Source: Hydractinia symbiolongicarpus (taxonomy: Eukaryota > Cnidaria > Hydrozoa > Anthoathecata > Hydractiniidae). From it: 64,000 nucleotides of DNA. Below the pieces are notes generated by a model. It made no database searches. It worked only from the letters and a program-made list of their open reading frames with translations, and was not told the origin of the DNA. The stretch is taken from NCBI RefSeq assembly GCF_029227915.1, contig NC_079875.1:12337001-12401000 (forward strand), read 5' to 3'. This document shows positions 6,743 to 35,964 of this stretch, piece by piece. Each line of letters begins with the position of its first letter. Position 1 is the first letter of the stretch. The translations under genes were made by a program, and so were the position numbers.

Positions 6743-9700
6743 TCAAGGACCTGGCTGGTTATTCCCTGTTTCTAACTCCGTAATTTTACCATCTTTATCC
6801 ACAGCGGCGGGTTTGATAACATTCAGCTCTTTTAATCGGTCAAACATGCACATTAGTTTTTCCATCTCAGCTTCTTTTTCACTTTCACTGAGACTTTCGA
6901 ATGAAGTGTCTTTTGGTTTAGGAATAGCTCCTGTAAACAAAAAATATTAGTAAAAAATGGGAATAAGTTGTAAAGTTTTACAACAATTTGAAAGGAAAAA
7001 ATAGTGAACAGTATTAACCTTTAAAAGATTGGAAAGTAATACAATATAAATCAGGAGGTAGACTTAGTTATGTTCTTAGTTATGTAAATACTAATATTCA
7101 ATGAGGAAGAATTGAGAACACTTTAGTTTCCAGATTAGAGGTGCTTTACAGAGGCAATATATAATGATAGGGTGGCCTTTACTTTAAGTGTGAAGTAGTT
7201 CAAGGAATAGAATATTTTGAAGGATATTTCTATTTCACATTTGACTCAAATTTTATGGAAGTAAAAATCAGAAAACAAAATGCCAGCTTAAGGTTATCAT
7301 ACCTTTCTAGAAACATTACTATACACACCAAATTGGAAAGTGGCATAATACAGACTGAAAGTCAAAGTTACCTGTTACTGGGTCAACGTCGTCCTCCACA
7401 TCCGTAAGTTCATCAGATGAATAATCACCATCTGCATCGGACATTCCCGGTATCATCAGTCCACGTGATGCAAGAAATCCTGCACTGTTTCCATACCCTG
7501 CATATTGTATTAATCTTTGTGAGTTTTCTTTGCACAATACAAACAAAAAATCTGCAGCCATATTCTATGAAATAAATTGCAATTTAACAAAAAAAGAGCT
7601 TGGAAAAAAAATTATAAAATTGTACAATAATTTTTCATAAATTTATCAACTTGTTTTTTAATTAATGAAAATTTTGAATATTATATATAGAATTGGTAAA
7701 CATTATGTTGTATGCAAAGACGATGATAAAAGCTTATATAGAAAAGAGAGTAGACCACTTTTAGGGTACAATTTTTCATGTGGATTAAATTTTGCACAAA
7801 TTCATTAAATTAAATCCACCTAAAACTTCTACGTTTTCACACAAAACATGAAGGCATTTTCAATTCTCTTTCTCTCTTACTTTTATATGCTTCTACCCAG
7901 AAATTGTAATTGGATTGCTGCCCCTTATAATTCAATTTACCCGACTTACAAAATACACCAAAAATAAAAACAAGCAAAAATTAACTTGCTTAAAAACTAT
8001 TTATTTATGCAAAGTCACAAAATTAGATTTATTAAAGGGAATCTGAAATAGATGACACCGTGAAATCTAACTTTGCAAATTTCCACCTTGTTATTGCTTA
8101 AACTAGGCTTACTTTAAGTTTTTTGTGGACTCTGCTAAACCTTTACATGAAATTCAAATTCATCCTTATAAAACCTTATCTCTGTGTTACCAATCTGGAA
8201 ATTTTTTTTTGTAAAATCGCAAATATTTTAACTTCAAATTTTCATTTAGGGAAGGTTTTCAACATTGATTTTGAGTTGAGACTAAAACCACTCAAAAAAT
8301 AAATGCAGAATAACCTTTAATGGCACATCAACAGTTGTCATTAACTGTACAATATTCCCCCTTAGGTCTTTAAACTGCTCTGGACGAACATCTGATGGTT
8401 GCAATGGAGGGAGAATTTCTCGTTTCAAATACTTTCTTATAACAGGATTAACTCGACACACAAAACAAAACGCTGTTAAAATTGCCATGGTTTTCTCCTT
8501 CATTTCAATGTAATTGTCAATTTGTATTCTCAATTTCAATGCATCTAGAAACACTATGACGGAACGCATTTCAAAGTTCTAAAAAAAACAATCAAGTCAA
8601 TATAACAACAACTGCACAAAGCTAAAGAAAAATCATGTGACAAAAGAAGCCATAAAATGTAACAACGTGTTTCCAAAAAAAAATACATACGACAAAATTG
8701 ATGAAAATTAACTGCATAAGGAATCATTAATATAAACGTTGTTTCAGTTAGATATGGTTCAGATTAACATTACACAATTTCTATACCTCGTACGTTACCG
8801 GATGTCCACAAAACTGTTCTTCTTCATCTTTATTACTATTTATTACCAAACCATCGAGAGCTGTTTTCGGCATATTAACCATCATATGAGCTATATGTGT
8901 CAACAGATCATCTTTTTCATCGGAGTCGAAGGGATAAAAACTAACTAACATGTTTTGTAAAATGCATACTAGATGTAAACAATCGTCAACAATACTTGGA
9001 GAGGTACTATTGCTTAGCTCTAGGGTTATATTAAACAACGCTTTCAAGACTTCACATATAATAGGAATATGCAGACCAGAGTCGTCAGATCTAAAAAAAA
9101 TAATAAATAGTATTACGAGATTACCAAAGATAACACACAAACATTATTGATACTCATGAATTCGCGAATTTCATTGGTTGCAAATAAGATAAAAGTTATT
9201 CTGAATCAGTTAGAAAATACACATTACCTCTGTGCAGTCAATTTAATGGAAATTAGTAAAAAAAATTTCTTTAGTATACAGAGGGTTTTTGAGGATATTA
9301 ATAGATTTTTCCTTATCATTTTAGAGGACCTTTACTAAAACTTCAGAAAATGTTGGTGACAAATAGATTAAATAGTGCTAATAAATAGAAGAAGCCGTAG
9401 TTCAAAATCACAATTTAGAGTTTTTTAATTTCCCTTTTCAAAAAACCTTAAAAATACCTGCAAAAGGTCATTTTCTCTAATTTTAAAATCGTAAAATTTT
9501 TAAATTTTAACGGATTTCAAAGTTTTTTAAAATAAACTACTTTGAAAATATAAATGGACTTTAAGGCATCACATGATGTGACCATTCTGAGAAACAAGCA
9601 TAAAAGCAAGTTTATTAAAGAAAAATAAGGAAAATGTTCAATTTCATACATAATAAAAAGAGGAAGTAACACATATAAGAGGAATTAACACATACTTGGA

Positions 9701-10297
9701 ATTAGCCAAAACTGCATCTGTCATAACCTTAACCAAAGTTGCAACAGCATCATCTTCAAGCATTTGGTTCCGTTCACTAACCTCCAATGCAGACATCAAA
9801 AACATTAATCGAATTTCGTAAAAATAATAATCAGTCACAGATTGATCTGTTATTTTCATTTCATCAATCATAAGTTTAATTAAGTTATTTTCTTTAAAAT
9901 ATATTCTGACTTTGTCACTAAGATAGACCCAGTTACATAAACATTTCACTGTTTCAATTTTTGACAAAAGGATATTGGAACCTAATTCTGCTTTCTCCTT
10001 TAGCAATTTTGCAAATATGTCCATGTAGAAATCAACATTTTTTATATTCAACACAAGGTTTTTGTCTCTGCTTAACAATCTTGTTATTTTGATACATTCC
10101 AACGAGAGTGGATGTTGATGGATTAATAAAAAGATTTTGTCAAGCAGTTTATTGTGACATTTGGCATCTAATTCTGAATACTCAAATGTCTTCTCATTTT
10201 CGCAAATAAATTTCTCCAAGACTTTTTTGCCTTCTTCTATAACTGCTGCATCATCCAAGTTATTGGTGAGCTCCTCGAATACTGGCAATAAATCCAT
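6743..10297 (-). CDS. RIC8: RIC8 (synembryn), G-alpha chaperone and exchange factor
   Basis: RIC8 proteins bind monomeric GDP-bound G-alpha subunits in the cytosol, help them fold, and stimulate nucleotide exchange without a receptor. Exons: 9696-10297, 8787-9090, 8315-8578, 7372-7564, 6743-6930. All junctions are GT-AG and in frame, giving 516 residues, the usual length. The armadillo/HEAT-like helical body is clear: RLLSRDKN near residues 90-96, KCLCNW, LKALFNITLE, then FLFVLCKENS, AGYGNSAGFLASRGLM and DPVTG in exon 4, and a C-terminal MFDRLKELNVIKP segment. Exon 4 carries an acidic stretch, YSSDELTDVEDD (about 438-449), aligned with the CK2-phosphorylated region of vertebrate RIC8A; S440 and T444 are candidate sites by inference. 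An acceptor-like TTTTTTAG lies 10 bases upstream of the ATG, so a 5' untranslated exon is likely further right. Confidence 0.95.
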
Positions 10298-10486
10298 ATT
10301 ACTAGACTAAAAAATAATAGTTCATTATTCAATGATTGGGTCAGGGATTGATTAGCATACTATTTTTACCAACTAGCAATATTAAAACATAATGAACATT
10401 AATTCGCTGCCTGTTAAAAAGATGATGAGATTGAAGAGGAAGTTCAAACTGAAAAGGAGATCACTGTAGCTTTTGTAGCAAGTGCA

Positions 10487-15254: not shown

Positions 15255-18200
15255 CTAGTCTTGAGGGAGCATTTTTACTCTTATCAGTTCTGTATCCAGT
15301 GGCAGTTCTTCTTTGGCAAACAAACGATTTGGTGTCCATGTTGAAAAACGAAATCGAACATCTTTATTTTTAACGACACAAACGGCAAAGACAAAACAAC
15401 CGAGAACGGAAGCTGATATGCAAAAAATCCATTCCGATATTTGTGTTGCAAACCAAACCGCAAGGGTACCACTCAACCAAGTAACGCCATACAAGGTAAA
15501 AAGAACAAGTGCATTTTTCAGCCGCAGTAAAATCTCCTCGTTTTCCTGTTCCATTCTTGAGGATTTATGGATAGCAAAACCAGCACGGGATAGTGTCGCA
15601 ATACTGCCAATTATAAGTGCGATGACTGGCGCGAGAACTCCAATATAAAATGGTGTACCATGTACAACACAACTAAAAGAAGAAGACATTATATCGTCAT
15701 AGAACATTTGAAAAAGAATACAGTTGCATAAGTAAGCGGAACAGAAAAAAGCAAGCGAGACAGGAAAAAGGTTCTTCTTACAAGTCTTGGCTTCCATAAA
15801 ACCAGGGCGCTGCATTTGGAGATATAGCCACGATGAGTAAAGGAACTCCTAAATATAATATAACGAGGTACTTAATATTCTTAACAACACCAACGAGGAA
15901 TTACACTAAAGGAAGAAATTTTTTTGCTGGAGAACAAATTCTGGAGCTTAAGTTTGTGATTAGTAGTATGAAAAATGCGAGATAGGAAGTTGCGAAAACA
16001 CGCACTTTGTTTAAAAACTACGTATTTCCGGATTGCCAAAATGTAACCTAGATATTTCCACGGACCAACCAAACAGGATGGTTATATTCTATTGTCTAAA
16101 GTAAATTTTATGCTGAATTTTCAGGAAAAATGCAAATAAACCGGAAATTGGTTTTAATGCAGAGTAAAATGTCTGTGGAATTTGAAAAAGTGTGGAATTT
16201 GAGTTTGCAAATACGAGGCAAATTCGCAAAATTTAATTCTGCATATATTTATTACAACTTCGAGGCAATTTCCCGACTATGCTGAGATAGCCAAACTCGC
16301 GAAAATTATTCTCGTTAAAGTAAAAACACCAATTATAAAAAAGGTCAACAAAATAAAAAAATATCCAAGTCGTTATAAAAATCAGGAAACAACACGAACA
16401 AAAACGCAAATCATACCGAAAGCAAACAGAGCATTTTTCATGAGTAACGAAATTCCTTTTTCAGATTGAGCAGATCCGAGTCTCTGGGATCCGAGCCTCT
16501 GGGACGTCCACAACGCATATAGAAATACCCAGCAAAACGTCGTTAAAGTAAAATACTGCAGAAATGCGGCTACTGTACGGCATGCTGACGATGACGTGTC
16601 ACTGACTCCCGACACAAACACCAGCAGTAAACAGACAAGAGACAAACAGATACAAAGCATGAATCTCGTATCTTGTTTCTGCAAAGATTTTCTAAAACGT
16701 TCAAAACAAAAAAAAAAAAACACAATACAGCTAATAAATGATAACTTCAACACATGGATTTTAAGAAGCACAAGCTACAGTTGACGCCCCTTATCTCGTA
16801 TATTCGCTATACCAAACTTTTTCGCCAGTCCCTTGAGAGTTTGAGATAACGAGGGGCGACTATACACATATATTCGAAAACTATATTTATGAGAAATCCA
16901 ACATAAAGATACTTGAATAAATGATAAATATTAAATTAGTTTTACACAAACACTAAATAATGCTTTTTCGCTTTCTTCTTAAAGTTACCAGTTCTGTCAA
17001 AGTTCAAAATCTCAATTATCGGTGACGTGACGCAGCTTACCACCATTAGAAAATGTTTTATTACAAAAGCTCTTAAAGACACATCAAGGTAAAAAGGCGC
17101 ACACGGTCTCTGCCTTTAAAAACATTTTTTAATTTCGACTTTATGCTTATTATAAAAAAACAAAACAAAAACAAAACATAAAACATAAAAAAAAACAGAT
17201 TATATGCATTTCTTCATTTAAGAAGCTTTCCAAGACTTCTAAGGCAAAATATGTTCTAGCCTTAAAAAAAGAACGCAAAAACAGAAGTGGGTAAAAAATT
17301 CTAGAAAAGACTTAGAAGGCAAATAAGAATGCCAAGTAAAAAAAAAAAAAAATGAGATTAATTATTTTAAGGGAAATACGAAAACATATATCATGTAATA
17401 CCTGAAAACCAACAATAAAGTTACAGTGATTGCAATGAACATGATTGCAATTCCACAACCAATCCAAGTGACCAGTCCAAGTTTTAATAGCTTTCTTGAA
17501 GCTTTGAAAGTTTTTTTCAGGACTAAAGCATAGTATCCCAATTGCTGACATTTGCATGTGATCAAATTTGGTTCAGAAGACACTTTTACGCAACCTTCTG
17601 TGGACCAATGACTTTTCATACCACTCGACTCTATGAGATAAGTTTAGAATATGATATAAAATTAAAGGAGTTTAATCAGTATCAAGAGACATGTGACATT
17701 TCAATAAAACGTTTGCAGTTAAGAAAAGTAATTGGTGAGTCTTAAAGGTATAAAGAACAAGAGAAGAGAAATTTGAAAAGAAAAAGTTAAAATGATAACA
17801 TCATTTTCAAACAGACTGCTTTAAAATAAGGTAAATTGAAATTCCTAACCAGAGAGAACAGTGTCATTGTTGACACGATGTTGAACTTCAGGTTAAACTA
17901 AGTTTGGAGGGTAACACGGGACGCATCTTTTGTGTTTGCAACTTTCAAGCATGCGCACTGATCAAAAACTGCATTTCCTTTCAGGGTGAATTATTTACAT
18001 GGAAATCTCGCACAGGTGTGAAAATTAATAAAATGCCACCTTAAGTGACTTTTACTTGACTTGGACTAATTAAACTTTCATATATAAACAGTCCTACAAA
18101 TACACCGTACAATAAAGTGACTCAAACCGATTTAAGTTCAATTCGTGCCTCAGATGGACGCCCTGTCAGTAGAAAACAAATGTAATGAACTAGTAATGTC

Positions 18201-21200
18201 AGAATAATAATCCTTCAATCTCATCACCTTTATATGTTTTCCATAATGCACAAATTTCGTAAGCACCATTCTTTCTAATAGATGTGAATTTTAAAATAAT
18301 TGGTACTTTTAAATTTTCAACATTTTTCTTTGCCAATGCTACATATAATACAACACTGCTGTTTGACACTCTCAAAGAATTTTTTACGTCTGAAACAAAA
18401 AACGGTTTCTTGAAATACGAGAACGAATATACAAAGTTTTCTTTATAAGAAAAAGTTTTTGATGGCAAATGAATTGAAGCTTGAAAGTGTTCATTAATTG
18501 TTTGCAAGCTTCCAGTGTTCGATATCTTAACTTTTAGCCCACCATCGTTTTTTTGCACAGCAATGATATTTGTGGCATTCCGCTCTATGAAGGCAGCACT
18601 GACGGCTATATTTTGTCCAGTTAAGGATAAGTTTTGTTTATTTTCCATCAATGCTTCAGAAATTTTCTTAGTCAGTTCTTCAAAAGCATGAGTTATCTTC
18701 CACGTCACGTTAGTTTTAAGAATCGCCTCGTGTTTAGCGTTCCACAAGTTGTTTATGACATAAAATGTATTCGAAAATGTCTAAATAATAATATACGAAA
18801 TAAAATATATAGATACAATAACATTAATCATAATAAGATATCGAAAATCTTTAGAACAAAAGTTCTTCTAAAATATTTTTGTGTGTATTAGCACCAGTGC
18901 TGTAGGGCAAAACCATCGACCTCTCTGGGACACAAAACTTAAGCCCTCAAAACAAAATCGCTTACTACGGCATTGTAGAATCTAACAGTTGCGGAAAATT
19001 CTCTTCCTCACCTGTTGGTTCATTTTGTCAACATATACCAAAGAGCAGTTACAAGAAAAAGCAATAAACTCAAAGCCAGTTGTGGTCATTTTCCTGCACA
19101 ATTTCCAATTCACTGAAATTAAAATCCCCTGCAAGAAATCCTTCCCTAAAGGCATTCCTTCTCAATACAACTATTAATTTTACCTTTCTCGTAATGTTAC
19201 CATCCTTGCTGATAGCAGAAATTATATCGGACACAAGCTGTACTTGAAATGATGACGTTAATAACTTCCCATGTTTAAGGATATCAACCAGCGTCTGCGA
19301 CATTTCTTCGGCATGCACACATCCGCGACTTACGTTGTAACGCTTGCAAATTTTCGTCTAAATAATTAAATCAAGTTTTAAAACTCAATTTTAAACACAA
19401 CAGAACTTAGGAAAAGATAAAAAAAATTACATTTTGTTAAGTATGTAATTAGGACATACTTGACTAAACTAATCAAAAATTTCATAGCTACCTGGTTCAA
19501 CTTTATTAACAGTCGCTTAATTAAGCCTAAGAAAATAATAAACACATCATTCACAAAGAGAAAAACAGAAACAAATACAATGTATTAAGTAAATATCGTT
19601 ACCATCTCACCTATGGTAAAGTTGTAAGCATCCTTTCTTGGATTACAGTATTCATCACTATTAGACGGATTGGCTTCATTTGCAACATAGCAATAATTGT
19701 TAATGAAGCAGGTGTTATTCTAGAGAAAGCATATCGAATTACCTCCAACGGACAAGAATAAAAACGTTAATAACAACCTCACAATTATCAAAACTTCTAC
19801 GACCACCATCCAGAACATTAAAAAACCCAATCAAATCAAATTAAATCAATACTATCAGTATTATTACGAATACTAACAATAATAAACACTTCTCATCAAC
19901 ACCAGTACAACCACCATTAACCACTTAATTAAAGACCTGTTTTCATTAAAGTCAGTTATTGTCGTGAAAGAGATAGAAATTTTTGTTATCTCTATAACAT
20001 TTGTTGATAACATCTCTTGTGTTGCTTTGCTGTACAATACATGTTTTCACTGATTTCGGTGACTGTTTGCAACTGTTGTTCAACTACTCATCAACACTTT
20101 TTATGTTAATAGAAATACTATGACAACAATGACAACTATGACAACATTAACCACACAACTAACATCCACTAACACGAATACCAACAATACAATAGACACT
20201 AGCACCAAAACTAGCACCGACACTAGCACTAACTTAACCAACACCATCAGCATTAACACGAATACCAACAACAACAACAACAACATCAAAAACACAAAGA
20301 ATGCAACAAAGAAAAAGCAAACCTATAAATAATTAAGATATGGATCTTAAAAACAAAAAAACGAAGAAGAAATAAACCATATTTTGAACATTGGATTAGG
20401 AGAGAAAACCTTACTTTCTAAACACTGGCTATCTAAAGTTTCCGTTCTGATTTTTAAGATGGTAGAAAATTATGTTGTTATTAATAGATCATAACAAGAC
20501 AAAGGAATTACTAGCCAAACAGCTAATCAAGCTAATGCATTATAACATTTATTTGTACTAATTTTTTCTTAAGTGGTAATCCATTTAAATAACAACTCAC
20601 CTTCAGCATGCACTCATTCACGTCTTTGGTGCAGTAAACACATTTTGAATCATAGACAAAATGCATTACTTTCTTCACGCTGCGAGTGTTACCTTCATCA
20701 TGGGATAAATACAAATCGTAAATCTTTAATGGGCTTGACACAGATATTGTGGCTAGAGGTAAGGTACACAGAACCTCAGCAAACGAAACCAGCGTGCCTT
20801 TGATGTTTGAATGTGATCCAATTGCAGGACGATTTGACCAAGTCTAGAAATAGAGTTGGTTTGTTGCTTTAAACTTACAATAAAGATCAATACAAGCTCA
20901 AAAACAGTATAATTAGGCACTATTCTAGAGGGGTTACAGTAGAAAGAAATTAAAAAGACAAGTTCTTTTTCAGATCCAAATCACATCATTCAAATTTCGA
21001 GTTCTTTTTCGTTTTGAATTGTTACCTGGTGATGGCAATTTTTTCATAATAAGAATATCTAAAAGAGAAACTAATGACAGATTAGTATTTTACCTTATTC
21101 AAGATAAAAGTACACGTGACATCTAAAGAATCGACTATACTTCTTCCTGTCACAGACACCATATCACATTCATGCTTTCTCGTATCGCAGTAATGTTTTG

Positions 21201-24200
21201 CTTCTACGACTATGGGAGGTGAACCTAAATGTGGCAGTTAAAACATGGAAAGTTTAATTAACATACAAAGATATCCTTTGTCTGCGAAATGTCAGAACTT
21301 GATCTCTTTACTCTCCTATTAACTAGCTGTAGAAATGACATTTTAAAGTCAATTCCTCGTATGAAATTAGAAATTTGAGGGTAAGACCCTAATTTTCCAG
21401 GTCTGCTGTAAAATACAACGACAGGTAATGGTATTTTCTACATGAACATCCAAACTGTTGGAAAAAATGTGAACTTTTTTTCATTAATAGACCAAAATTA
21501 CTTTTAAAATATTTTTGAACGTAAATATATTAGGATGCATAAAAATTAAATTTCCAGACATGAAAGTCAATTATATATTAACTTCATTTAATATTACATT
21601 TCATAACAAAAAATCATATATCACACCTTTTAAAATCGAACAATCACTTCCGACATATGCGTCATTGCAAACACATGATCCGTTCATACATTCTCCATTT
21701 CCACTACAGTCGTTCATACATATGCTGTTTGCAACAAATGCTGGTGGCTCCAAAGTCCCATTGTCAGTCTTTTCCCAATACTTTTTTACATTTTTGAGAA
21801 CAACATCCTCACAAGATGTTGACATTACGTGTATGACTGACTTGACAAATTCATATGAGTCTGATAGCTATATTACAAGGGCAAAAATTTCTCAATAGAC
21901 AATACAGGATGATGTTAAGTACCTTGGGTGGGGCGCACATTTGACAATTTACTAAGGAAACTTTTTTAAAGGGGAAGTCCGGTAAATTTTCAAAATTTTT
22001 AAAATCACAATATTACATGTCTGTATAACAGCCAAAAAAAATTTTTCAGCTAAAAAGTTCTAAAAGTCATGAAAAAAGCAATTTTGCCTCATATCATTTC
22101 TACTTTCACTTCATGATATATTTCCGCAACGAGTAGTCTGGACACTAATATTCTTCTGACGTCATTCGTGACAACAACATTCGGCGCGTTACTTTCTTGC
22201 AGTAGTAAACTTATCTTGAAGTAGTTATGTCATCTTCCTCTTCTGATGTAAGCGATGTTGAATTTAATGAAGATGAAGAGTTTGGTTTATCTCCTTTCAT
22301 GTTCGAACCGGAACGGAGTCAAAGTGAAGTGGCTGCAGCTTTAGAAGCTTTAGGAAACAACGTTGGTGCTAAAAACTGCAATGTTGAAGCTGGAAATCGT
22401 GTTGGAAATGTTGAGTGGTGCCAGTGCAAAAAGTGTAAAATTATGGTCACTGAAACGGAAAGTTTATGTTGTCGTGATAATAATGATATTCCGGACGGTC
22501 ATTTTCAAGGTTTCTGTTGATTAAAATATCTTCTTATCGTGTATTTTACTTCCTTGTTTGCTACATCAATCACTTTCTGTTCTGTCACAACAAAGTTTTA
22601 GAAAGCTAAACGTTGTTTATTTACACACGGGGGTACGCCTTTTTAAAGATCTTTTTTCTTTTTTCGCTTAGGTCATACGTGTGTTACAAATTCGGATGAA
22701 TTCAAAATGGTTTGTTTGCCGGAACCCGTGTTACGGACAGCACTAGGTGCTATTCACAACATGAGAGGGATTCGTCATAAACTTTGCAACAGATCATATC
22801 GGTTTGCTGCTTATAAACAATATATATGGTGGGTGTATGGAAGACTGGGCATAGGTTATCGAAAGCCTATACCATCATGTGTTGTGTGGGTAATCCGTAA
22901 TGAATACCCGCAGCCCGATGGGGTATACGTGCCATACACAGAATCAGGAATGGATTTGGACACATAAAATGTATAAGAACATGTATAATTGTAAAGATGA
23001 TGAATGAAATTTTTACAATATATGTTTTTAAAATATAACAAATGTCCCCCGGAATTGTAAAATAAGCGTTTCTTGATGTAATGCTAAATATCATTTATAA
23101 ACCTGGGGGTTACTTTTAGGTAAATCTTGAACGCATATTCGAGACAACAACTTCCTTCCCAGGGTTTATTTTTAATGCAATATTTCTGGGTGTTTCAGGC
23201 AACTTAAAAAATATAGGAGCTTTGATTTTTTGAACCAAATCAAACACTTCCTTCATCAAGTCCTCTTGGTATTTCTTTTCTTTCGGATCCATTACTTTTT
23301 TTGCCACCCACTCCTTCGTAATTTTGGTGAAAGAAACTTTGAACTTCAACCTCCCATCGGATGTAGTGGCTTGTTGTCGTTCTACACCCGAGTTGTGGTC
23401 AAGCACAGCTAGTTGCGTCCTAGCAACCATCCCAGCGTACGAGAATGCTAAGCGTTTGGGACAGTACTTATTCAACAGGGAATGGTAAACCTCGAGCTGT
23501 CCAGTGTGCTTGAAATCAGCTACGTGTTTTAAATCGTTTAGTAGCTGTTTTTCATTAACAATTTTCTCCAGGGCGATGTAAGCAGGGCTTTCTTCAGTTA
23601 ACCACTTCTTCTGAGCTTGTTGTAGCAGGGTAAGTTCTTCATGAGCACATTTATGATATAGCGTATTATTTACCCAATAATGTACCCCACGGATATGACA
23701 GAGTAAACTCTGCCACTTTTCCTTCAATAATATTGGATCTCCTTCGCAAGTCGAACAAGCCCACCAGAAGTGGTTTATGATAGACTTCATCCAGTCATTC
23801 AAGTCACGACAGCTCTTTTTTTTTGCAACTTTCAAAATCTTTTTTTTGATATTTTTTGTCATGTGCCACACATCAAACTGGTGCGATATATGTTCATGTT
23901 CGGTGCGCATAAACTTTCGTATCTGGCTATGTCTGTCGGTAACTAGTGTGTCCACTATTACGCCAGCTTCGTCGATAAATTCCAAGCACTCAGCAAGTCC
24001 ATGTTTTTCCATGCGTGCCGAGTTTCCTGCTAAACGAACGTGTGAAATAAAAAAGTTCACCACCTCATTTGTCATGGCGTCCATGAGGCTGTATGTACCA
24101 TATTTAGCACTAAATCCAGGTGAGTCACAGCGACCATCTCCAATTAAATCGACACCCTCAAGCGCAACGAGTCTAACAAGTGTGGCTTCCTGATAATGCG

Positions 24201-27200
24201 TAAAAATGCTATTTATGGCTGGGAATAAAAATCTTCGCTGAAGTTCATGGAACTGCGACCTACTTATAAAGTTAACATTGGCAGTTTCAAATGCTTCTTT
24301 CACACCTTGAAATGTTAATCCGTTGAACAATATTCCAGCAGACAGCCTTACCGTTCCTTCCGCAATTCGATTTAAGTAAGGTTGTGATCTCCAAGTCACT
24401 TCGTGGTTACCGGCGCAAACCAATTTCACAATAAGCATACTACCCTTAGTTATATGTTTTTTGATAGTAGCTTTCTCACCGCATTCAAAGCAGAATTTGA
24501 AGAGCGACTTAAGCATTTCAAAGTACACTAGAAACATTGTTGAAGGTGCAATCGACTGCGTACCTTCCCTAACATCGACATCTTGCTCATTAACATCACT
24601 ATCAGCCGTATCGGCACTACTATCGACCGTATCAACATCGCTACTGACATTGAAAGATGCATCCGGATCAGCGCGATCTTCTACTTCACTTGCGCAAAAT
24701 GAAGAGCAATCTCCAATTTCATCTCCCTCTTTCGCAATAAGGTTGACTGTGGAAACGCTAGCATATTGAGTTAATATAACAGTTTGCGTGTTCGTCGAAG
24801 ACAAAGTTGGACTCATCTGAGTAGACATTGATTTGCATAACACAGCAGGAACCATAGTGCTCTTTGTTCGCATTGGTGTAGCACAGCTAACTTCTTTGTT
24901 GATCATGACGACATCAACAGTTTGCGTAATAGCATCCTTAAAAAGGGGCTCAAGTTCTAGGGAAGGTGCTTCCGGGCCACCTGAGTTTTCTTCTGCCGTA
25001 CAAGCTTCATCCACAATCTAAAGTTATGAACACATTAAGAAATTTTTTATTCCTTAAAAGAACAAATATTTTTTCCAACTCCAAGATTTTTAAATCTGAT
25101 CATTTTTTTGGAAGAGCACATAAAAAAGACATTCGAGGCTGAAAAAGTGTAAAAAAAAAGAACAACCAGACTGAGGTAAAATTTAAATGTTCTTATAAAA
25201 AACGTGTAAAAATATGTTTAACCACGATTGGCCTGCTGGGTTACCTGGCGTTTTGTTTTTCTTTCGTTTCTTGCAATGGATGCAGAACGCTTTGCAGGTA
25301 GCGGTTTCGAGAATGAAAATACCGATGGAATAGCGTTTGGTAATAATATAAACTTTCTCACAGAGCCACAGAGCTCCGCCTAAATAATAAAATTTAAAAA
25401 TGTATTTTTACCCCCTGGTTATTTATGGACAAAAAGATCAAAAGACAGGTGTTCAGAAAATTATTGAAGGTGAATACAGTTTCGCAACAAGCTTATTTAC
25501 AAAAGAAATAATGTGAAAAGAAGTCAAGAAAAATTTAAGAAGTGCAAGAAATACCTTGAGATCGCGTTGAAAACATTCGGACGTGAAATGCATACCACAA
25601 AGAACGAAATTCGTGTCTGCTGGATATGGTGGATCTCGCTTCATAGCTGCTAGCCATTTCTTACGACGTTGTTTATTTTCTTTTTCGGTGGGAACGTTAT
25701 GCCACCCTTTTACATCAGCTACCGATTTTTTGGTGGAAGAGTTACCACAATTTAAAGCACCACAAGTAACCATGATAACAGTAAAATCAATGGTACATTT
25801 ATGACTTGTTTGAAGTGGTGTAATCGACAACTGAAGTATTCCGGCGTGCAGAAAGCTGTTGTCATAAAATACGTCACGATAAACATTAGAGCCCAGACCT
25901 CGATGATAACAACAAAAAGATGGCGTCGTTTGAAAAAAAACAGTAACAATCCTAAACTTTGATAGACATTTATATCATTTGTAATACGAATTTTTAAAAA
26001 AGATTTTGCAGAAATTAATAACACGATGGTGTTTATTCAACACACAAATTTTGAAAAATGACCGGACTTCCCCTTTAAGGAATCACTTCGATGATTAAAA
26101 ACTCGGTTTATAAAATGTACAAGCTGTAACTACTCTAAGTTGATTAATTTTCACAAAGAAATATTTTCGTGATTTAAAGAAAAAATGTATTTTGTTAAGA
26201 TTAATTTTCCGTCGCAATTACACCAATTTCCAACATTTATTCGCGCGAATCTACTAGTACTTTCCTTAAATTTTAATTTAGTTAAGGTCTTAGATAGGGT
26301 AGCCTTAAATCAAACTTGCTTATGTCACAGAAGCTTGGAAATTTGCAAAAGACGGAGACAATAATTCATTTCATTTAATGTATATAGCTAAAATAAAACA
26401 GAAGAGAAACTCCTAACAAGGCACATTTAAGTCTCCAAAAAACAACATAAGAAGAAACAATTATAATACCCAAAATTAAAAAATAGAGCTTGTAACCTGA
26501 ATGTCTGAAATGCATTCGTTGCGAAATGCTGCAACGTCAAAATCCGATCTCAAAGTGACGGAACAAACTTTTCCAATTGTTGAATTAAATATGCTCTCAT
26601 TGCAAAACTGTTCCACTTCAGTAAACGTTTTGCCACTTTTAGTGGGCCAGGTGGGAAGAACAAATTCGCGATCAGGAGGATTATATTCGTATATGGTATC
26701 ATCACCTTCGTCTGGAACAACGATAACATTCGAAACTGCTCTTTTCTTTCGACTGGCACAGTTAGCAAAAGCTAAAATAAACAAGCTAATACAATAGTAG
26801 AAGTTTTGATGCATAGACTCGTATTACAGTAAAGACTTGACTGATTTCAGGGATAGAATTCGTTGTCTTTTACGAAAGGTCACTTCTGCTAGAACGTCAT
26901 ATAATATAACAGTTGAGATGACATAAAGTGATAAATATTTAAAAAGCTATATGACTTTCGTGGTTTTATAATGCAAATAGGTTTTTTGGATTTGAGATTA
27001 TTTGATAACGAAATTACTATGAAACAGTCATTTTGAATATTTTTTCTTATCTTTCTAACAAATATACATGTATTTTTTTTTAATAAGATAAATTCAACAC
27101 AATCTATCCTTTCCATTCCTATAAAATTTTAATAACCATTTGTAATCTGAAATATATCCCCCAATGTTTAGAAATACAAATTCAATACAGAAATACAAAT

Positions 27201-30200
27201 AATATGGAATATGCCAGACTTAAAGAGTGTAATAAAAATAGCACATTCAGCCTTGCTAAAATTAAAATAAAATTGTCTAAAAATACATAAAATTAAACTT
27301 TGTACTCTTATGTATTTTCCCTAACACAGCAATTTATTGTTTTTCTAGTCTTGTATACTTGTAAAATTCAAATATGAGGCCAAAATATGGCCTATGCTTC
27401 TATGTTTTACTTCACTTTCTGTCCTGATTATAAAACGAAAATATGCCTATGCTTAATTTTCCCTTCCTTTTTGGTCTTTTTGTTGTTTAAAATCTTTCAC
27501 TTATAAAAAACCTGTGTGGGATGATGCAAGAAAACAGAAAAAATATTGATTATCAGTACACACATATACCTGCTGACATAATGATTCTTCGATCTGTTTT
27601 CATGTTCAGCTGAGGATGAACTGCTGTATTTTCATATACGCAACTAGATCTCACACCAGTACCATCACGTCTCTTGCAAATACAAAAATACTCATCTTTT
27701 GTTACAGTGGATCTCTTACATCTTTTAGTGCCACTTTTTTTGAAAAAAAGACTGGTTCTTTTTCTTAACCTTAAAATAAAAATACTGATATGTACATAGT
27801 AATTCAAAGCAAATCGAAAACAATAACATATTTGGAATATTGTGACTGAAAAAAAATTCAGGATTTGTTTTACTTGAAGTACTTAGGAGATTTCTCAGAA
27901 AATTTATTTCAACATTAGACATTAAAAGGGAGATATGAAAAGGGCTAGAAAACGGTTAAGTAAGATCTCCCTCTTTGAGGTTTTATCTCCATCCTTGCAC
28001 ATTGTGAATAACATAGTACAATAACCAGACAACTTAGAAAGTCAGGTGCAAAATTATGCCCACTTTATTGCAACACCATGGATAATCTGTTCATAAATAA
28101 TTACTTTTTTATTTTTCTAAGTTTTGGTCTGCAAAATATAATAGTAAATATAATAGTAAAAACAAAAGTTTGTTTTGAAGAGGCAAAGACAACATAAGAA
28201 TTGGTTAAAAATAATACAATACATAACCTGAGGAAGGTAATTAATATTTTAAAGTTATGTTGTTGCCTTAAATGGTTTTATATGCAATAAACAGGTATCT
28301 TTTTTTGCAGAATTTAAACAGATAATAGTTAGCCAACTCTAGGTTAAAGAAGATTTCTTTAGCTAAAAAAAATGGATTTGAAAGTAATGCTTATATTGAA
28401 CTAATTATAGATGTCAAATATTTGTAAAGTAATTTTCCTGCGTTTTCACTTATATTTGGGTATGAACTGTGATATCAAAGATGATTCGAGATGTTGTCGC
28501 TATGCCAATTACTTACGAACCTTTTTCCCTGCCATAAGCTCAACTTTCGTCTAAGTCACAAAGTCAAAAATCAACAGCTTGTTTTGTAGTCATTTTAATC
28601 CGTTACTTGCTAAAAATTTTATTACAGCATATATTTTTTGAATTCTGCTAGAAAAAAAAAACGAGAGAAATTATCATACTTCCAAGAATAAACAAAGATT
28701 GAATTCGCTGGATCACGCTCTCTGTAAATGCTTCCATTTTTTGACATCATGTCATTAGCAAGATTCCCGTCATATAAACCACACAAGCCAAATGTTGCAT
28801 CTCGATAGATAGACGGTATTTCGACATATACATTCGCAAAGGAATTACTATTTGCCCGCTCTTGGACATTAAACTTGATGCGCAAACCAGATGAAAAATT
28901 GATCTGAAATATATTTTCACAAACAGTAATTATATATCATTCGACAATCTGTCTTTACAACGGACTAAATTTCTAGTCAAAGCAAAAGGAATGCCATATT
29001 TCAGGACAGTTTCAATCCGGTTGCAACCTAGCCTCACAATACTTTATACAAAATTAAACAATATATATACACGGTGTCTGTCAAGAATTATTAAATTAAC
29101 TGCAGATGCTTTAAATCTACCCTTTTATAAATATTAAAATTCAAGAAATAAACAAAAATTGAACAAATACAGTCAAATGTAGAAAGAGTATTAGTTACAA
29201 ATTATAACTTTATGGTTATTTATTTTCAAATTTTAATGTGTGTATTTAATTTTTACATTCGCCATAGAACCTGCTACAATTAGTATGTTTTTATAGTAAA
29301 GATAATACATACCTCAAAATATTTCGACTTCACACTTTCTAAGGTAGTTGCGTCAGACGGCTTGTGGCCAGTTGGCCATTTAAAGTGTGGTTTCGATGAG
29401 TTACACATGTCTATAGCGACAACATCATCTTTCTCCTGAGCAGCCACTGCTGCACTCCAGTTGCACGTAACACTTTGTGAGCAATCAAATGTTCTGATAT
29501 GAACCTAAAAACAAACTAAAATTTTTGCAATTCAAGAGGTAAATGTGCATTATTTTCCTGACACTTTACCCGAAAAATAGAGAAAACTCCTAAAAAGTCA
29601 CAGACATAATTTTGCGACAAGTTGAAATCACTTTTCACATTTTTTCGCACTTAAATTATTTCCATTGCTTGTTAGTAAGCTTGTGAAATAAACATAAATT
29701 ACAACTAACCTTCATATTGCGTTTAAGACTTTGCACCAGAACAAAATCACCTGGACTGAAAAAGGAATAACGAATCCCATCAAACGTTTTAATATAAGGA
29801 TCTCCGCTTGAAGAACAAGATGCTGTTGGAACATTGTTTGTTGTGATCTAAATTAATACAAAAAACAATTAACCTTGAAGTTCACACTTTCCTTATCTTC
29901 GTGAATGCAATTTAAGTGTAAAGTTTTCTGCTTATGAATAGATATGCATTTTCTTATCTTTATGATTGGCATATAAACCTTTTCCTAACTTATACGATGC
30001 TGTCTTTTGCACATCAGAATAAAATTGCATGGTTACAGATATAATATTGGTATTTTTAGTGTATTTGGATGCACAGACTGATGTTATACGCATCTCTGTT
30101 AAGTAAACGTTGCAACAGGCAGGAAAGAAGGTCTATTGTGATGGCTAAATATTATCGTATTTGGCATGATAATAACATTTGTAAAAGGTAACAATACAAT

Positions 30201-31742
30201 TGTCACCTTTGGCAATCCATATCCTAATATTTGGCTCTTCTTCACCACCATCTGTGAATAAATGCCTTATTTCAGAAAATGGAAGCAAGAAAAACAATTA
30301 CCAGCAATGGTGTTTGGTCTTCGTACCCTTTCCAATCAAAGACTTTATTAAAGCCACTTAAAACAGGCTTAACAGCTATATTTTTCAATCCATCATCTAT
30401 AAAATCCTGCTTTGGGTAAATGATTAAAATTTTAGAACGTTCTCCAGCTGGAACAAAATCAAAAGTACAACTGCTAAGAAAGACGTCCTCCTTATCTTGT
30501 TCAAATGATATTTCAACACTGCATTTTTTGCTTGCATCTGCACACACTAATGGGACAGTTAAAGTGAGTTTGATTTCTTTTCCGATTGAATCTTCCGTGA
30601 TAATGATTTTTTTTGGCTTAATCTAAAAATGTATGAAATGATACAATACTGTCAGAATGTAGCAGTGCGCTGTGCGCTGTTGATGCATATAAACACATAC
30701 CGTAAATCTACCGTAACATGTATGTATAAACAAAAACAATTCTAACTCGCGGAAAATATTGTCCCTTTAATGAACAAGAATATTTGAAGTTTTCAAGAAA
30801 AATTCAGAAAAATCCCCAAATTTGCTGTTGATTTTATCGCAAGGGGCTGCCTTGTAAGAGCAATTCAGCTACTGTTAAATTGTTACTACAAAGGCTAAAC
30901 TACTAACTTGTACAAAAGATTTGTTAAAAAAACATCACAATAGATGTTTAAGCTTTGTGCAATGAAAGGAATTGGAAATTCAATTGTTTTACAATGTCAA
31001 TTGTTATTTTTAAGTTAAAACGAGTTAGGTAGTACTGTATATTTGTTGTGTATATTTCATTTCCCTTTTTTTTCAATCTTATAACCCCTTTTAATAAAGA
31101 AATATAAATTATTTAATGTGGTATAAGTCTTTCTGTTGTTTCTGTCACCACCTAATTCCCAGTATTATGTTCCACAAGATAGTTGACTGTCCGAGGATTT
31201 TGAAATAAAAATTGAAAAGAAATAAAACACAATAAAATAATTTGACCAAACCAGTTAAACTTTGACTGCAAAGTTATTTATCTGTGAGTGTGGTAATTTT
31301 TTACACACTTACAAATCTCTTCTATTTATATAGTAAACATCAAGAAATACACCTACTCGAGTCAGAATAACCTCTTTTAATCGTAAATAATAACTCAAGT
31401 GTTTTCTCAAGGAATATAGAATAGAAAGTTAACAAAAAGTATGTCAAATTTAAATTCCGTTAGTTTTTATTGCAGTAACAGGTCATCTTTCATAAATACT
31501 TTTTGATTTATTTTGGTATCTTTTTAGGTATATTTACACATCTTTTACCAATTTTTAACAATATACTTATAGCAACTGAATTCAGAAAAAACAATGCTAG
31601 AAAAAAACTTTAAAGAGTTTTTTTAATTTTGGCCTTTTTTGTAGTTTTTTTGTTAATGCATAAAATACAAATCTGCTAATCTATATTATAATACTTGTAT
31701 ACGACTGTCACGTCTGTCTGTCTGTCTGTCTGCCTGCCTGCC

Positions 31743-31807
<65 letters not shown>

Positions 31808-34800
31808 GGCAAGATGGTAGCTTAGCTGCGCAATAGCGAGAAGCATGCAATGCGGTATAAAAAGGACGGGCGAACCCGTGGATTTTCCATGGGCTAACTA
31901 GTTTAAGAAAATTAATTCAGTTAAAATTTTCATGTTTTTTTATACTATCTTAAATAATTATAATATTAGAAACAATTGGATCAGGGTCACTATATGTTTT
32001 ATGACAAAACCAGCAGTTTGCATTTTTTCAGTAGGTCGGAATAGGTGGTCTTTTGATTATTTGCAAATTCAACTATACACTGTTTTCAAGAACTGAATTT
32101 ATAAAAATAAAACTTATTAAAAATAATGATAGACAAGTACTCTAATTGATCGATGTTATAAAACTTCAACTAGTCTCATCTAACTATTTTTTATGATTAG
32201 TGTGTAGAACATAAATCACAAACACTTTGTTGCACCCGGCACAGTGGATTAGTGAAGGCTATAGCTAAAATTTTAAAAATAAGTAATAACTTGGCTGATA
32301 TGACTACAAGTTTTGAATAAATATATATATGTAAACCTGACACAAGACCTGGCCTATTACCACTTGTCTAGTTACCATTACACCTACCTCAATACCTGCA
32401 AAAAACTTTGCACTTTCATAATACCTGCTTTTAATAGCAGGTGTATCATTGAACCATGACTGAACAATGCAGTATATCTAAGAAAACATTAAATTATTGA
32501 CTCAATATTATTTTTTTGCACTATGTATTATTAAGGATTTCATGTTAAATTTAAAATAGATGTGAGTGAAGATATAAAATGGCATTTATAACAATTATAC
32601 TTTTTGTTGTGCTAATGGTATAAAAAGGAGATGCTTTGGTTTTGTATACTGCTTATTCCGACTATTGAAACATTTCCACACATAGACCTACCTCTTGACC
32701 CAGTCTGAATCTGACTTCATTTGTGTTTAGTGTTAAACTGTTTTGAAAAGTTGAGCGATCCTGTCCAGAGACTAGCACATCAGTTTTGTTTAGTGACTTT
32801 TTGTTTTGAGCATACCAAGAAACTTCATACACACTACGAAAATCTGTGATGTTGTCTTGGAGAATACATTCAAAACGCAAGCCATGTTGAAATGTTTTGA
32901 CAGTGATTACTGGCAAGATGTGTATTATTGGATAGTTACCTTTAAAGCAAAGTATAAGCCTAAAGGATGACATAAGACATAATGTCTAAAACAAAATTCT
33001 TTCAGAACAAAGTATATTCAACTAAAATACAAAGCTTTTCATGGCATATTACTACATCATCAGGTAAAATGAATTACTAAAAACTGTATTACAATAATAT
33101 ACACCATATAAAAGTTAAAAACATGTCCCAAAAGATGTAAAAACTAAGTTTATTCAAATATTATATTTTTTGAAAGAATTTTGGTTTACTTACAATGGCA
33201 AACAAATCATCTTTGAACATAAATGTTTGATCAGGATAAAAGTCATTATGCTGATAACAGATTTAAAAAAGTAAATAAACTGAGGGGTAAATATAACAAA
33301 GTTAGTCTATATGGAGGAAAGGAATTTATCTTGAGGTAGGCTCAAAAAACATGAGGCGTACAAAAAGGAAGTCCATAAATTTTGGTTTACTCATCATTTT
33401 ACCACATCATTTTTTTATAGATGGGTTGCTGACGTCATCATCATTCAAATGACGCTTCTTTTTCGTTTTTAATTTGCACAAGTGGATTTTTCCACTGGCT
33501 TTATTGACTAGTTTTACAAATTAACATGAAACAAACCTAGACGTTCGCCAATACTGTATATCCATTCTCCTGGTTTGTTCACATTAGAGTTAGTTGTTAA
33601 AAAGACCATTTGTCTTGCATCAGAACGACTGTATGTGTTTCGAACAAAGTTTAAACCATTAGTGGGCCCTTCTTGCCAACCAACCTACAAAATAAAAAAT
33701 AACACTGTAGTAAGCTATAGTCATACATGTATTGGTTATACAGAATAAGCACATACGTAACAACAATATAAAACCAGTATAATAATGTAGTTTAATAAAA
33801 ATATATAAATAACAAAACCACTACAGTAACGCTGTAAACCATATAGTTTAGGTAAAGAGTGTCGAAAACAGAAAGTAAAGCTGAAATCACTAAAAAACTA
33901 AAAAAACGATGAAAATGATAAGAGAGATTAACTATGTGGATTAACTATGAATGTCTATCAACTGTAGTTGCCTCTGGATAATAATCAGCCTTTCTATTTC
34001 ACGTCGATACACGGCAAATGTAGAGGTGATCTGAAAAAAAAAACTAAGTTTACATCAGCAAAATTTTGCAGAGGCTTATTTTTTCTTCCCATATGATATT
34101 CTTCAATTGCTTTGAACCTATCATAAATATACACAGATTATATCGGTGATAAAGGTTAATCTCTAATTGCAAGAATTAATAAAGATTGTAAAAATGGTTG
34201 CTGAGCATTTTGCTTACTTACCCTAAATAGAATTAAAGTAGTTTGAAGGTGAGCAAGCTGGCTTGGAAGAAAAAGGCTTAAATTTAGAAGGTGATTTGCC
34301 AACATCAGACACCGCAATTAAATTTCATGTCATCGCATTTTGCCAATGTGAAATTGTGGATTGCCGAGGCGAATCAAAAAAATGAAAACTCACTTTGGCA
34401 TTTTTTTGCCGACGAGAAATGGCTTAATGCCGACGTGAAACAGTATATAAAAGTTCAGAAAAAATTTGAATTGGAAAGGCTGAAAATACTCTCTTTTAGA
34501 AAGAAACATGAAACATAAAGAAATAAACAAGTATATAACATATGAATTTGTTCCCTTACCGTAGTTTCGCCAAATGTGTTTTGTATGGTATTGTATAGAT
34601 AAAAGGCATATGTTGTCGATGCATCCCAGGCAAGTGCCAGTTGAAATGTAAAAGTGCACTAAAAATAATGTGCTGTTTATATTGAAGCCATAGGGACCTC
34701 CTCCCCTAGACACAAACAGCATATATACATACCCCTTCATGTTGATATCTGTTGATTTTAAACCATGTTACAACAAGCACATGATTTGGGTAAAATGATT

Positions 34801-35964
34801 TACCCATTCTCAATCTAATTTCATTGGAAGCTCTTCTCAATACAGTCCCGTTTGCATGCAATTGGTAATAGAATTTGGAGGAAGGTTTTATCAATTCTAA
34901 GTCATTCCAAAATGGTGCAATAATGGAAACTGTTAGATTATTATGCTTTATTGGAAAGTCTGTACTGGTATACTCATTAAACGTTTGATGTCCAAAGGCA
35001 ACATAACCATTGGTTGATATCTTAAAATAATTTTAAAAAAATAATCAAATAATAAGTTTAATAACTTCTGCATGTTAATCAAAACACAAGAGTTTAAAAT
35101 TTTTTAAAGGCGGGCTGGGCTGGCTTGGCAAACTTAACTGGCTCACTTGCAGGCCTGGTTTTCAACTTGTGTTTATATGGTTAGGCAGGCTGGCTCTAAA
35201 CAATGAAAACATTAAATAATATAGAACAAAAGAAATAATTTTCATGACAAAAGAATTTATTTACTTGAGCATAATATACCATCTCCCCTAGTAGTCCACA
35301 CTACTCGCTTTGTTACTGTTTACATGGAGTTGAAATTCCATTGAAAATAGCATTTAGGCGAGATCATGGCAGATGGGCTGGCTCAGCTTCTATATAAACA
35401 GTCTCTTAGAATAGGAGATGTTTGTGAAAGTTATTAAAAGTAGGGGATCAAGATAATGAAAGTTAAAAATAAAATACTATTTTTATCTTTTAATCTAAAA
35501 TCTGTAAAATTTTTTATACTCCATATCGATGCCAAAAACTAAAGAGCTTACCACTGAAAAGGTATATAAACAACAGAATTTATCTATAGGGTTAAGTGGA
35601 TCTTCCACACAGGCTGTACACAACTGGTACAGAATGTGTACACACACAAAAAACAGGTCATTTTAGAACCAACTCTGGTCTTTTCTACATGGCATAAGGC
35701 ATTCTTGTATTAGTAGGATAAACAATCCAAAAACATAAACAATACCTGCACATTGACATTGTTTCGTCTGCCAAAAAATGGAATGTGTGGAGTTTTGATT
35801 TTGTGAACAGCATCATCTTTTGCAACAAGTTGAATATTTTGCTCCAGATCATGAAGTACAACATCGTTCTGGGCTGTTCCAAAGGGAAAAAAATAATCAA
35901 TGTCAATACTTTGAATGAAGTTAGGTGCTGTTGATAGTAAAGTTATCAATAATAAAAAGGACAT
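15255..35964 (-). CDS. NIDO-VWD-EGF adhesion-type 7TM receptor (VWDE-like ectodomain)
   Basis: Large surface receptor joining a VWDE-like ectodomain to an adhesion-GPCR core. Exons: 35746-35964, 34733-35020, 34560-34658, 33537-33684, 32692-32939, 32388-32477, 30302-30622, 29710-29847, 29313-29504, 28680-28903, 27570-27769, 26497-26771, 21627-21867, 21094-21224, 20601-20843, 19611-19719, 19492-19526, 19184-19357, 18228-18780, 17402-17630, 16417-16691, 15782-15848, 15255-15672. Every junction is GT-AG with matching phase; total 1,638 residues. Order: hydrophobic signal peptide (1-19); NIDO domain (about 22-251; FFPFG, STNGYVAFG, SNVNKPGEW); linker (252-471); VWD domain (about 475-720; GDPYIKTFDG, GLCGLYDGN); WPTKSGKT segment as in VWDE; EGF repeat (Cys 864, 868, 874, 879, 881, 890); VWDE C-terminal Cys-rich region (895-1055); GAIN (about 1068-1310); GPS (1305-1341); seven hydrophobic helices (from 1362). 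The GPS has the WS and C-x-C marks but reads QLG where cleaved receptors have HL(S/T). Exon 17 is only 35 bp and is the weakest link between ectodomain and GAIN; without it the frame breaks. Domain calls are strong; the single-gene model is inference. Confidence 0.78.
16778..16860. repeat. Short foldback repeat (pogo/mariner-type MITE candidate)
   Basis: CAGTTGACGCCCCTTATCTCG on the left matches the complement of GAGATAACGAGGGGCGAC on the right with small gaps. TA dinucleotides flank both sides, as expected for TA-inserting elements. It lies in intron 20 of the receptor gene. Confidence 0.5.
20110..20332. repeat. A/C-rich low-complexity tract
   Basis: Strand-biased tract made of ACA, AAC, ACT and CAC triplets in intron 15 of the receptor gene. 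It gives open frames on both strands (Thr/Asn-rich on plus, Leu/Val-rich on minus) that are artefacts of composition. Confidence 0.8.
22227..22967 (+). CDS. Kolobok accessory protein with P2X7-ballast-like Cys region
   Basis: Two exons, 22227-22509 and 22672-22967, phase 1 GT-AG junction, 192 residues. The N-terminal third is acidic and Ser-rich (SSSSSDVSDVEFNEDEE). It is followed by a zinc-binding-like cluster, WCQCKKCK ... SLCCRD, then after the junction HTCVTNSDEF, a VCLPEPVL helix and a basic, aromatic segment YRFAAYKQYIWWVYGRLG. This resembles the cytoplasmic ballast domain of vertebrate P2X7 receptors, which recurs in invertebrate stand-alone proteins. Inside the transposon it is convergent with the transposase gene (149 bp between stop codons). 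Function in transposition is unknown; the Cys cluster suggests a metal-binding helper. Without the exon-exon junction the first frame would end in FC-stop. Confidence 0.82.
23116..25773 (-). CDS. Kolobok transposase with N-terminal THAP domain
   Basis: Exons 25555-25773, 25245-25379, 23116-25017; both junctions GT-AG and phase 0; 751 residues. Residues 1 to about 105 form a THAP zinc finger of C2CH type: C-x4-C at the start, WHNVPTEKE, LCGMHF with Cys-x2-His, then LLPNAIPSVF completed by exon 2. Such fingers bind the transposon ends. An acidic, Ser/Thr-rich linker follows. The C-terminal 450 residues are the catalytic region, with DLIGDGRCDSPGFSAKYGTY, VTDRHSQIRK and FDVWHMTKNI, which look like conserved acidic blocks of a DDE-type fold. 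The Met at 25773 is preferred to one 19 codons upstream because it starts right before the first zinc-binding Cys. The gene appears intact. Confidence 0.88.
31680..31901 (+). mobile_element. Short-type Helitron with expanded (CTGT)n tract
   Basis: Begins TCTATATTATAATACTTG and ends GGATTTTCCATGGGCTAACTAG|T. Between them is the short-type body (TAGCTTAGCTGCGCAA, TATAAAAAGGACGGGCGAACCCG). The GTCTGTC present once or twice in sister copies has become an almost pure tetranucleotide tract of about 95 bases (roughly 31712-31807) with a few CTGC variants. It lies in intron 6 of the receptor gene. Confidence 0.87.
33420..33511 (+). mobile_element. 3' end of a long-type Helitron
   Basis: TTGCTGACGTCATCATC, then GTGGATTTTTCCAC and TTATTGACTAG|T: the 3' terminal region of the long type without its 5' part. 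It ends 26 bases from the splice donor of the receptor exon at 33537. Confidence 0.75.

Follow-up and report, generated by a model that had tools for sequence, protein, structure and literature searches.

In a 64,000-nucleotide stretch of the Hydractinia symbiolongicarpus genome (contig NC_079875.1 of assembly GCF_029227915.1, positions 12,337,001 to 12,401,000 of the forward strand; hereafter, the window), a gene on the minus strand encodes what we interpret, with a probability of roughly 0.8, as an adhesion (class B2) G-protein-coupled receptor (GPCR) whose ectodomain is a hydrozoan VWDE-like cassette, most likely joined to it by exon shuffling, and which would signal through an uncleaved GAIN domain. 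Exon chaining from 35964 down to 15255 gives 23 exons and 22 introns, every one of the latter with GT-AG ends, and a frame that is open from ATG to stop over 1638 amino acids. The order of domains in this protein is NIDO, Ig_VWDE, VWD, one EGF, a Cys-rich stretch, GAIN/GPS and 7tm_2.

The evidence that the two halves belong to one gene comes from P0001, a relative or paralogue and the best of 10 proteins retrieved at E <=0.001 among 4047 candidates in a whole-protein word search. P0001 (1561 amino acids, 12 member sequences) is 91% identical to the window protein over 96% of the query and is encoded on a public 5,051-base contig with the source code 'lgn', which we take to be Logan. It has exons 2-23 joined, including exons 15, 16, 17, 18 and 19 and thus the microexon described below. 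Because a contig of this length cannot hold the introns of the 19.8-kb locus, P0001 represents a spliced message; a genomic retrocopy, should the contig be one, would likewise derive from the fused message. The assembled sequence thus indicates that a relative or paralogue of the window gene produces a fused message, beside which shorter isoforms may occur. The first-pass annotation of this DNA had proposed a single gene in which a matrix module of VWDE type is coupled to the core of a GPCR; a transcript crossing exons 15-19 was to support this, and transcripts with an end or a start inside the interval 20601 to 19184 were to contradict it. P0001 speaks for the proposal on both counts, since it crosses these exons and reads through that interval, in each case for a relative or paralogue.

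The exon model was built from a three-frame reading of the minus strand, splice-site scoring and base-by-base reading of exon edges, and this independent chaining reproduced the ends, strand, exon number and limits of exons 15-19 that had been annotated before. When P0001 was compared with the window by tblastn, exons 2 to 23, which occupy 19.8 kb of it, were recovered in order (exon 17 within a joined row, and also when aligned separately), which excludes a chance chain of exons. P0001 begins at exon 2, and the support for exon 1 comes from Hydractinia homologues (28/69, 26/70 and 34/71 identities over residues 1-71). The 35-nt microexon 19526-19492 was located by comparison with P0001; an alternative chain of 22 exons (1629 amino acids without an inner stop, donor at 19603), from which it was absent, was replaced, and a candidate exon near 33250-33195 was dropped as incompatible with the phase and with P0001. 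The receptor locus is a real single gene.

Six Pfam domains exceed their cut-offs, the five main ones by a wide margin: NIDO (72-249, E 2.4e-26), Ig_VWDE (255-361, E 3e-14), VWD (482-638, E 1.2e-15), EGF_Teneurin (864-892, E 9.1e-6), GPS (1292-1336, E 6.3e-9) and 7tm_2 (PF00002; 1350-1584, E 4e-17, profile positions 3-245 of 250). The positions refer to the 1629-residue version, and 9 must be added beyond residue 1055 for the 1638-residue model. Six further matches in that version fall below the cut-offs. GAIN has no Pfam match there; the stretch comprising GAIN and GPS aligns full length to ADGRG6 (21du_R, E 4.7e-8, residues 26-292 of a 303-residue query). With this alignment and the Pfam matches, the previously noted order of NIDO, VWD, EGF, Cys-rich region, GAIN/GPS and seven helices is borne out. 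For the receptor end (514 residues of the 1629-residue version) there are matches at E <=0.01 to 28 distinct PDB sequences, 27 of which are adhesion GPCRs and the remaining one the glucagon receptor; the best structures are those of ADGRL3 (the top match, 7.8e-23), ADGRG2 and ADGRG6 (E 7.8e-23 to 2.9e-20). Two features of class B2 receptors, a 7tm_2 domain and a GAIN domain with its GPS directly before transmembrane helix 1 (TM1), are both present. The cysteines of TM3 and of extracellular loop 2 (ECL2) and the GVTW motif of TM6, which have functional roles in seven-helix receptors, are retained, and the C-terminal tail is short (~40 residues).

The closest named proteins are hydrozoan and come from Hydractinia symbiolongicarpus itself: P0002 (LOC130642063) and P0003 (LOC130638810), from the whole-protein search, and P0130 (VWDE-like isoform X2), one of 5 proteins that a second search retrieved from 5700 candidates. 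All three share the NIDO, Ig_VWDE, VWD and EGF core of the window protein at 46-51% identity (residues 1-1055: 521/1030, 508/1032 and 441/951 identical, respectively), and all part from it after the same residue, the sequence being NFTI in the window and HFSI, NFSV and NFTT in the three relatives. Beyond this point P0002 has two CBM_14-like stretches (21.9 bits, just below the cut-off of 22.1), P0003 three TSP1 domains and a MAM domain, and P0130 the first part of a VWA-like domain (24.5 bits for VWA_2, cut-off 27; 22.4 bits for VWA, cut-off 23.8), whereas the window protein and P0001 continue into GAIN-GPS-7tm_2. No GPS or 7tm_2 match was obtained in P0002, P0003 or P0130, which are apparently secreted. 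In blastp the window tail gave only two short matches to the three other tails (11 and 12 residues, E 3.2 and 5.8), and these three gave no match to each other at E 1e-3. P0130 is also without ~64 residues inside the VWD stretch and terminates within the VWA-like domain, which possibly reflects an isoform or an annotation limit. A structure prediction of P0002 (alignment rows P0003, P0130 and P0001) had a mean predicted local distance difference test score of 31 and was not used.

In the window the common part gives way to the tail where exon 16 ends, at a phase-1 intron after residue 1055. Introns of this phase are what is usually found between extracellular modules that have been shuffled. 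Because the break coincides with such an intron, exon shuffling is the simplest reading of the four tails and the most likely origin of the receptor, the intron evidence being that of the window gene only. A word search with the receptor end (residues 1040-1629) passed 374 proteins. Among the 120 matches listed, P0001 alone is close (85%); the other 119 are by name vertebrate ADGRL or ADGRE5 at ~25% identity, and by eye no protein except P0001 in these 120 carries NIDO, VWD or Ig_VWDE.

The relation to VWDE proper needs some care. VWDE is treated as a class of secreted proteins in the accessible part of PMC9117669. The window protein has the Ig_VWDE and VWD domains of this class and the NIDO domain of NIDO-bearing matrix proteins, but it is not a secreted protein free of membrane domains, since 7tm_2 lies in the same chain. 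VWDE has EGF repeats on the C-terminal side; the window protein shows one EGF. Six fish VWDE proteins (P0004-P0009) share Ig_VWDE (PF25776), VWD, PF26129 and EGF-type domains with the type represented by the window protein and P0001; unlike the latter, they have neither NIDO nor 7tm_2 among their precomputed domains. The precomputed domains of P0001 include PF06119, PF25776, PF00094, PF23106, PF01825, PF00002 and PF26129, the last of which was not reported by the Pfam scan of the window protein. The ectodomain is VWDE-like, and the whole protein is not a VWDE. The ectodomain had been annotated as a complete VWDE-like one, which holds for the hydrozoan core with one EGF and not for the fish form.

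The GPS of the window protein reads CKCQQLGYYALVL and that of P0001 CKCHQLGYYALVL, aligned to CLCNHFTHFGVLM of ADGRG6, which places glutamine at the position of the histidine base and glycine at that of the threonine nucleophile. In the aligned chains the motif is H-F-T in ADGRG6, H-L-T in G1 and H-L-A in E5; it is Q-L-G in the window protein and in P0001. According to the available portion of PMC13062082, the canonical motif is H-X-S/T, with the histidine and the serine or threonine as catalytic groups, and is common without being universal, ADGRB1/B3 carrying RLS. Since Q-L-G replaces both catalytic residues, self-cleavage is not expected in either protein. The segment after the lost cleavage site, GYYALVL, is Stachel-like, with an aromatic residue at position 3 and aliphatic ones at positions 6 and 7, as is characteristic of Stachel peptides. 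For uncleaved adhesion GPCRs a reversible Stachel mode, by which they may signal, has been argued (PMC13062082, same portion).

From this we infer an uncleaved matrix-sensing receptor, the ligand, force sensing, signalling and G protein all being conjectured. The cassette of NIDO, Ig, VWD, EGF and Cys-rich parts, joined at the phase-1 intron after residue 1055 to the GAIN-7TM end, would bind matrix or a partner via NIDO/VWD, perhaps a partner of the secreted relatives. Pull or binding would be relayed to the uncleaved GAIN domain, and GYYALVL would then reversibly engage the seven-helix bundle so that a G protein is activated. A wider and decidedly tentative scenario is that of a hydrozoan tail-swapping family, in which the cassette is combined at a fixed exon boundary with chitin-binding, TSP1-MAM, VWA or GAIN-7TM ends; the secreted forms might build matrix such as the chitinous perisarc, and the GPCR form, which has the cassette in common with them, might co-assemble with these forms and read the state of that matrix through an uncleaved, reversible GAIN switch.

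Several observations weigh against the receptor interpretation. P0001 is the sole fused relative found and is known from its protein sequence. It shares with the window protein the domains and their order, the microexon and the Q-L-G motif, and differs in being without exon 1 and in two details: the window protein is without a VWD cysteine kept in P0001, P0002 and P0003, and an extra RLGS-like repeat makes its loop before TM4 four residues longer (RLGSQRLGS against RL-VGS in P0001). The two proteins are also less alike in the receptor end (505/579 identical) than in the ectodomain (926/982), GAIN being the most divergent part (194/233). Cysteine, loop and divergence would fit a possible relaxation of constraint on the window copy. 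In a hydropathy scan of the window protein, P0002 and P0003 (cut-off 1.6), six of the seven helices of the window protein exceed the cut-off, TM3 falls under it, and an ectodomain stretch, residues 955-973, exceeds it. We take this stretch as a buried strand because the matching one also exceeds the cut-off in P0002 and P0003, where it is the only such segment outside the N-termini. Exon 1 is under the cut-off, and its putative signal peptide was called by eye.

An alternative explanation is that the exon model merged a secreted VWDE-like gene with a neighbouring adhesion GPCR gene. Intron 15 (20600-19720) contains a low-complexity stretch (VLVLVLV) and ATG-led hydrophobic open reading frames (ORFs) such as those at 20286 and 19818, polyA-like hexamers are found at 20553 and, within the microexon, at 19507, and none of the ectodomain's relatives in Hydractinia is a receptor; however, P0001 joins exons 15-19 together with the microexon on its 5,051-base contig, and we reject the merger as having almost no chance of being correct. 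That the fused gene is real while the window holds a decaying paralogue or allele of the P0001 gene would fit the missing cysteine, the expanded loop and the lower identity of the receptor part, but is quite improbable for a copy with an open frame and GT-AG sites throughout 23 exons and with all six named domains above cut-off. We also consider it unlikely, though less so, that the seven helices merely anchor a surface adhesion molecule that has no part in G-protein signalling, as the loss of the cleavage motif, the short tail and the faster change of the receptor end might imply: the 7tm_2 match covers nearly the entire profile, and the TM3 and ECL2 cysteines, the GVTW of TM6 and the Stachel-like segment have all been retained.

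If the protein is an adhesion GPCR, as we favour, its novelty lies in the ectodomain. Variety of ectodomain is a known trait of adhesion GPCRs, and ADGRL3, ADGRG2, ADGRG6 and ADGRE5 share the GAIN/GPS and 7tm_2 core of the window protein while differing in theirs. The NIDO/Ig/VWD/EGF ectodomain is new for an adhesion GPCR; it does not make a new kind of receptor. A VWDE-type ectodomain on a receptor is new, and the novelty is narrower than the first-pass annotation implied, since apparently secreted NIDO-bearing VWDE-like proteins already exist in Hydractinia. Our literature searches, in which subscription journals were little covered, found no paper describing a NIDO/VWD/VWDE ectodomain on an adhesion GPCR. 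The terms NIDO, VWD, von Willebrand and nidogen are absent from the main texts, as far as accessible, of PMC12716839 and PMC4302439, which were retrieved for adhesion GPCRs, cnidarians and domain architecture. For adhesion GPCR together with NIDO the only papers listed deal with olfactory glia and with cat oocytes and, going by their listing, have no bearing on it, and among the matches listed for VWDE and for nidogen and exon shuffling no such receptor appears by title. The gain of ectodomains by adhesion GPCRs is mostly inferred from distant comparisons. Here the same ~1,050-residue cassette occurs with the receptor end and with three other ends that part at one residue, an intron in the window, and domain gain therefore becomes testable. 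Secreted proteins and a receptor with one and the same ectodomain can thereby be matched in animals suited to the study of matrix, perisarc and regeneration; a role of vertebrate vwde in blastema growth is reported in PMC9117669, as far as accessible.

Table 1. Exons of the receptor gene (window coordinates)
Exon	Position	Strand	Content	Support
1	35746..35964	-	signal-peptide-like start, then N-terminal stretch leading into NIDO, residues 1-73	homology to P0002, P0003, P0130; outside P0001
2	34733..35020	-	NIDO	Pfam, P0001
3	34560..34658	-	NIDO	P0001
4	33537..33684	-	NIDO end	P0001
5	32692..32939	-	Ig_VWDE	Pfam, P0001
6	32388..32477	-	Ig_VWDE end	Pfam, P0001
7	30302..30622	-	conserved residues 365-471, without Pfam match	P0001
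8	29710..29847	-	VWD start	Pfam, P0001
9	29313..29504	-	VWD middle; NWSAAV in window, NCAV in P0001, P0002, P0003	
10	28680..28903	-	VWD end (GLCG)	Pfam, P0001
11	27570..27769	-	Cys-rich, after VWD	P0001
12	26497..26771	-	conserved DEGDDTIYEY block	P0001
13	21627..21867	-	EGF	Pfam, P0001
14	21094..21224	-	conserved stretch after EGF	P0001
15	20601..20843	-	Cys-containing stretch	P0001
16	19611..19719	-	last exon common to Hydractinia paralogues; phase-1 end at tail-swap point	
17	19492..19526	-	35-nt microexon GLIKRLLIKLNQ, identical in P0001	
18	19184..19357	-	GAIN start	P0001, ADGRG6 alignment
19	18228..18780	-	GAIN	P0001, ADGRG6 alignment
20	17402..17630	-	GPS (QL-G), Stachel-like GYYALVL, TM1	
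21	16417..16691	-	TM2-TM3, start of TM4	
22	15782..15848	-	TM4, start of ECL2	
23	15255..15672	-	ECL2 Cys, TM5-TM7, short tail, stop	Pfam, P0001

Two introns of the gene hold further elements. Intron 6 contains a short tandem repeat (31689-31916) with the translation DRQTDRQT, and intron 12 has, at 23119-25974 on the minus strand and thus in the orientation of the receptor gene, a THAP-domain ORF (25456-25974) and an ORF for a 633-residue Mutator-like transposase (23119-25017). Elsewhere in the window, a HIRAN-domain ORF (6.8e-6) lies at 38960-39601 on the minus strand, and a cluster of mobile elements at 40124-44308 comprises a DDE_1 transposase-like ORF, a reverse-transcriptase fragment and a 604-residue integrase-containing ORF whose accompanying domains we take to be copia-type. 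Downstream of the receptor gene, at 8781-10306 on the minus strand, there are pieces of a gene for Ric-8 (synembryn), a G-alpha chaperone and exchange factor (Pfam Ric8 8.8e-11, and also 3.3e-5 just below cut-off); this proximity is probably a coincidence. The whole-protein search also returned P0010, a 1776-residue JGI protein with precomputed PF00028 and PF00017, presumably cadherin and SH2, together with VWD and PF26129; cadherin-SH2 proteins occur in choanoflagellates.

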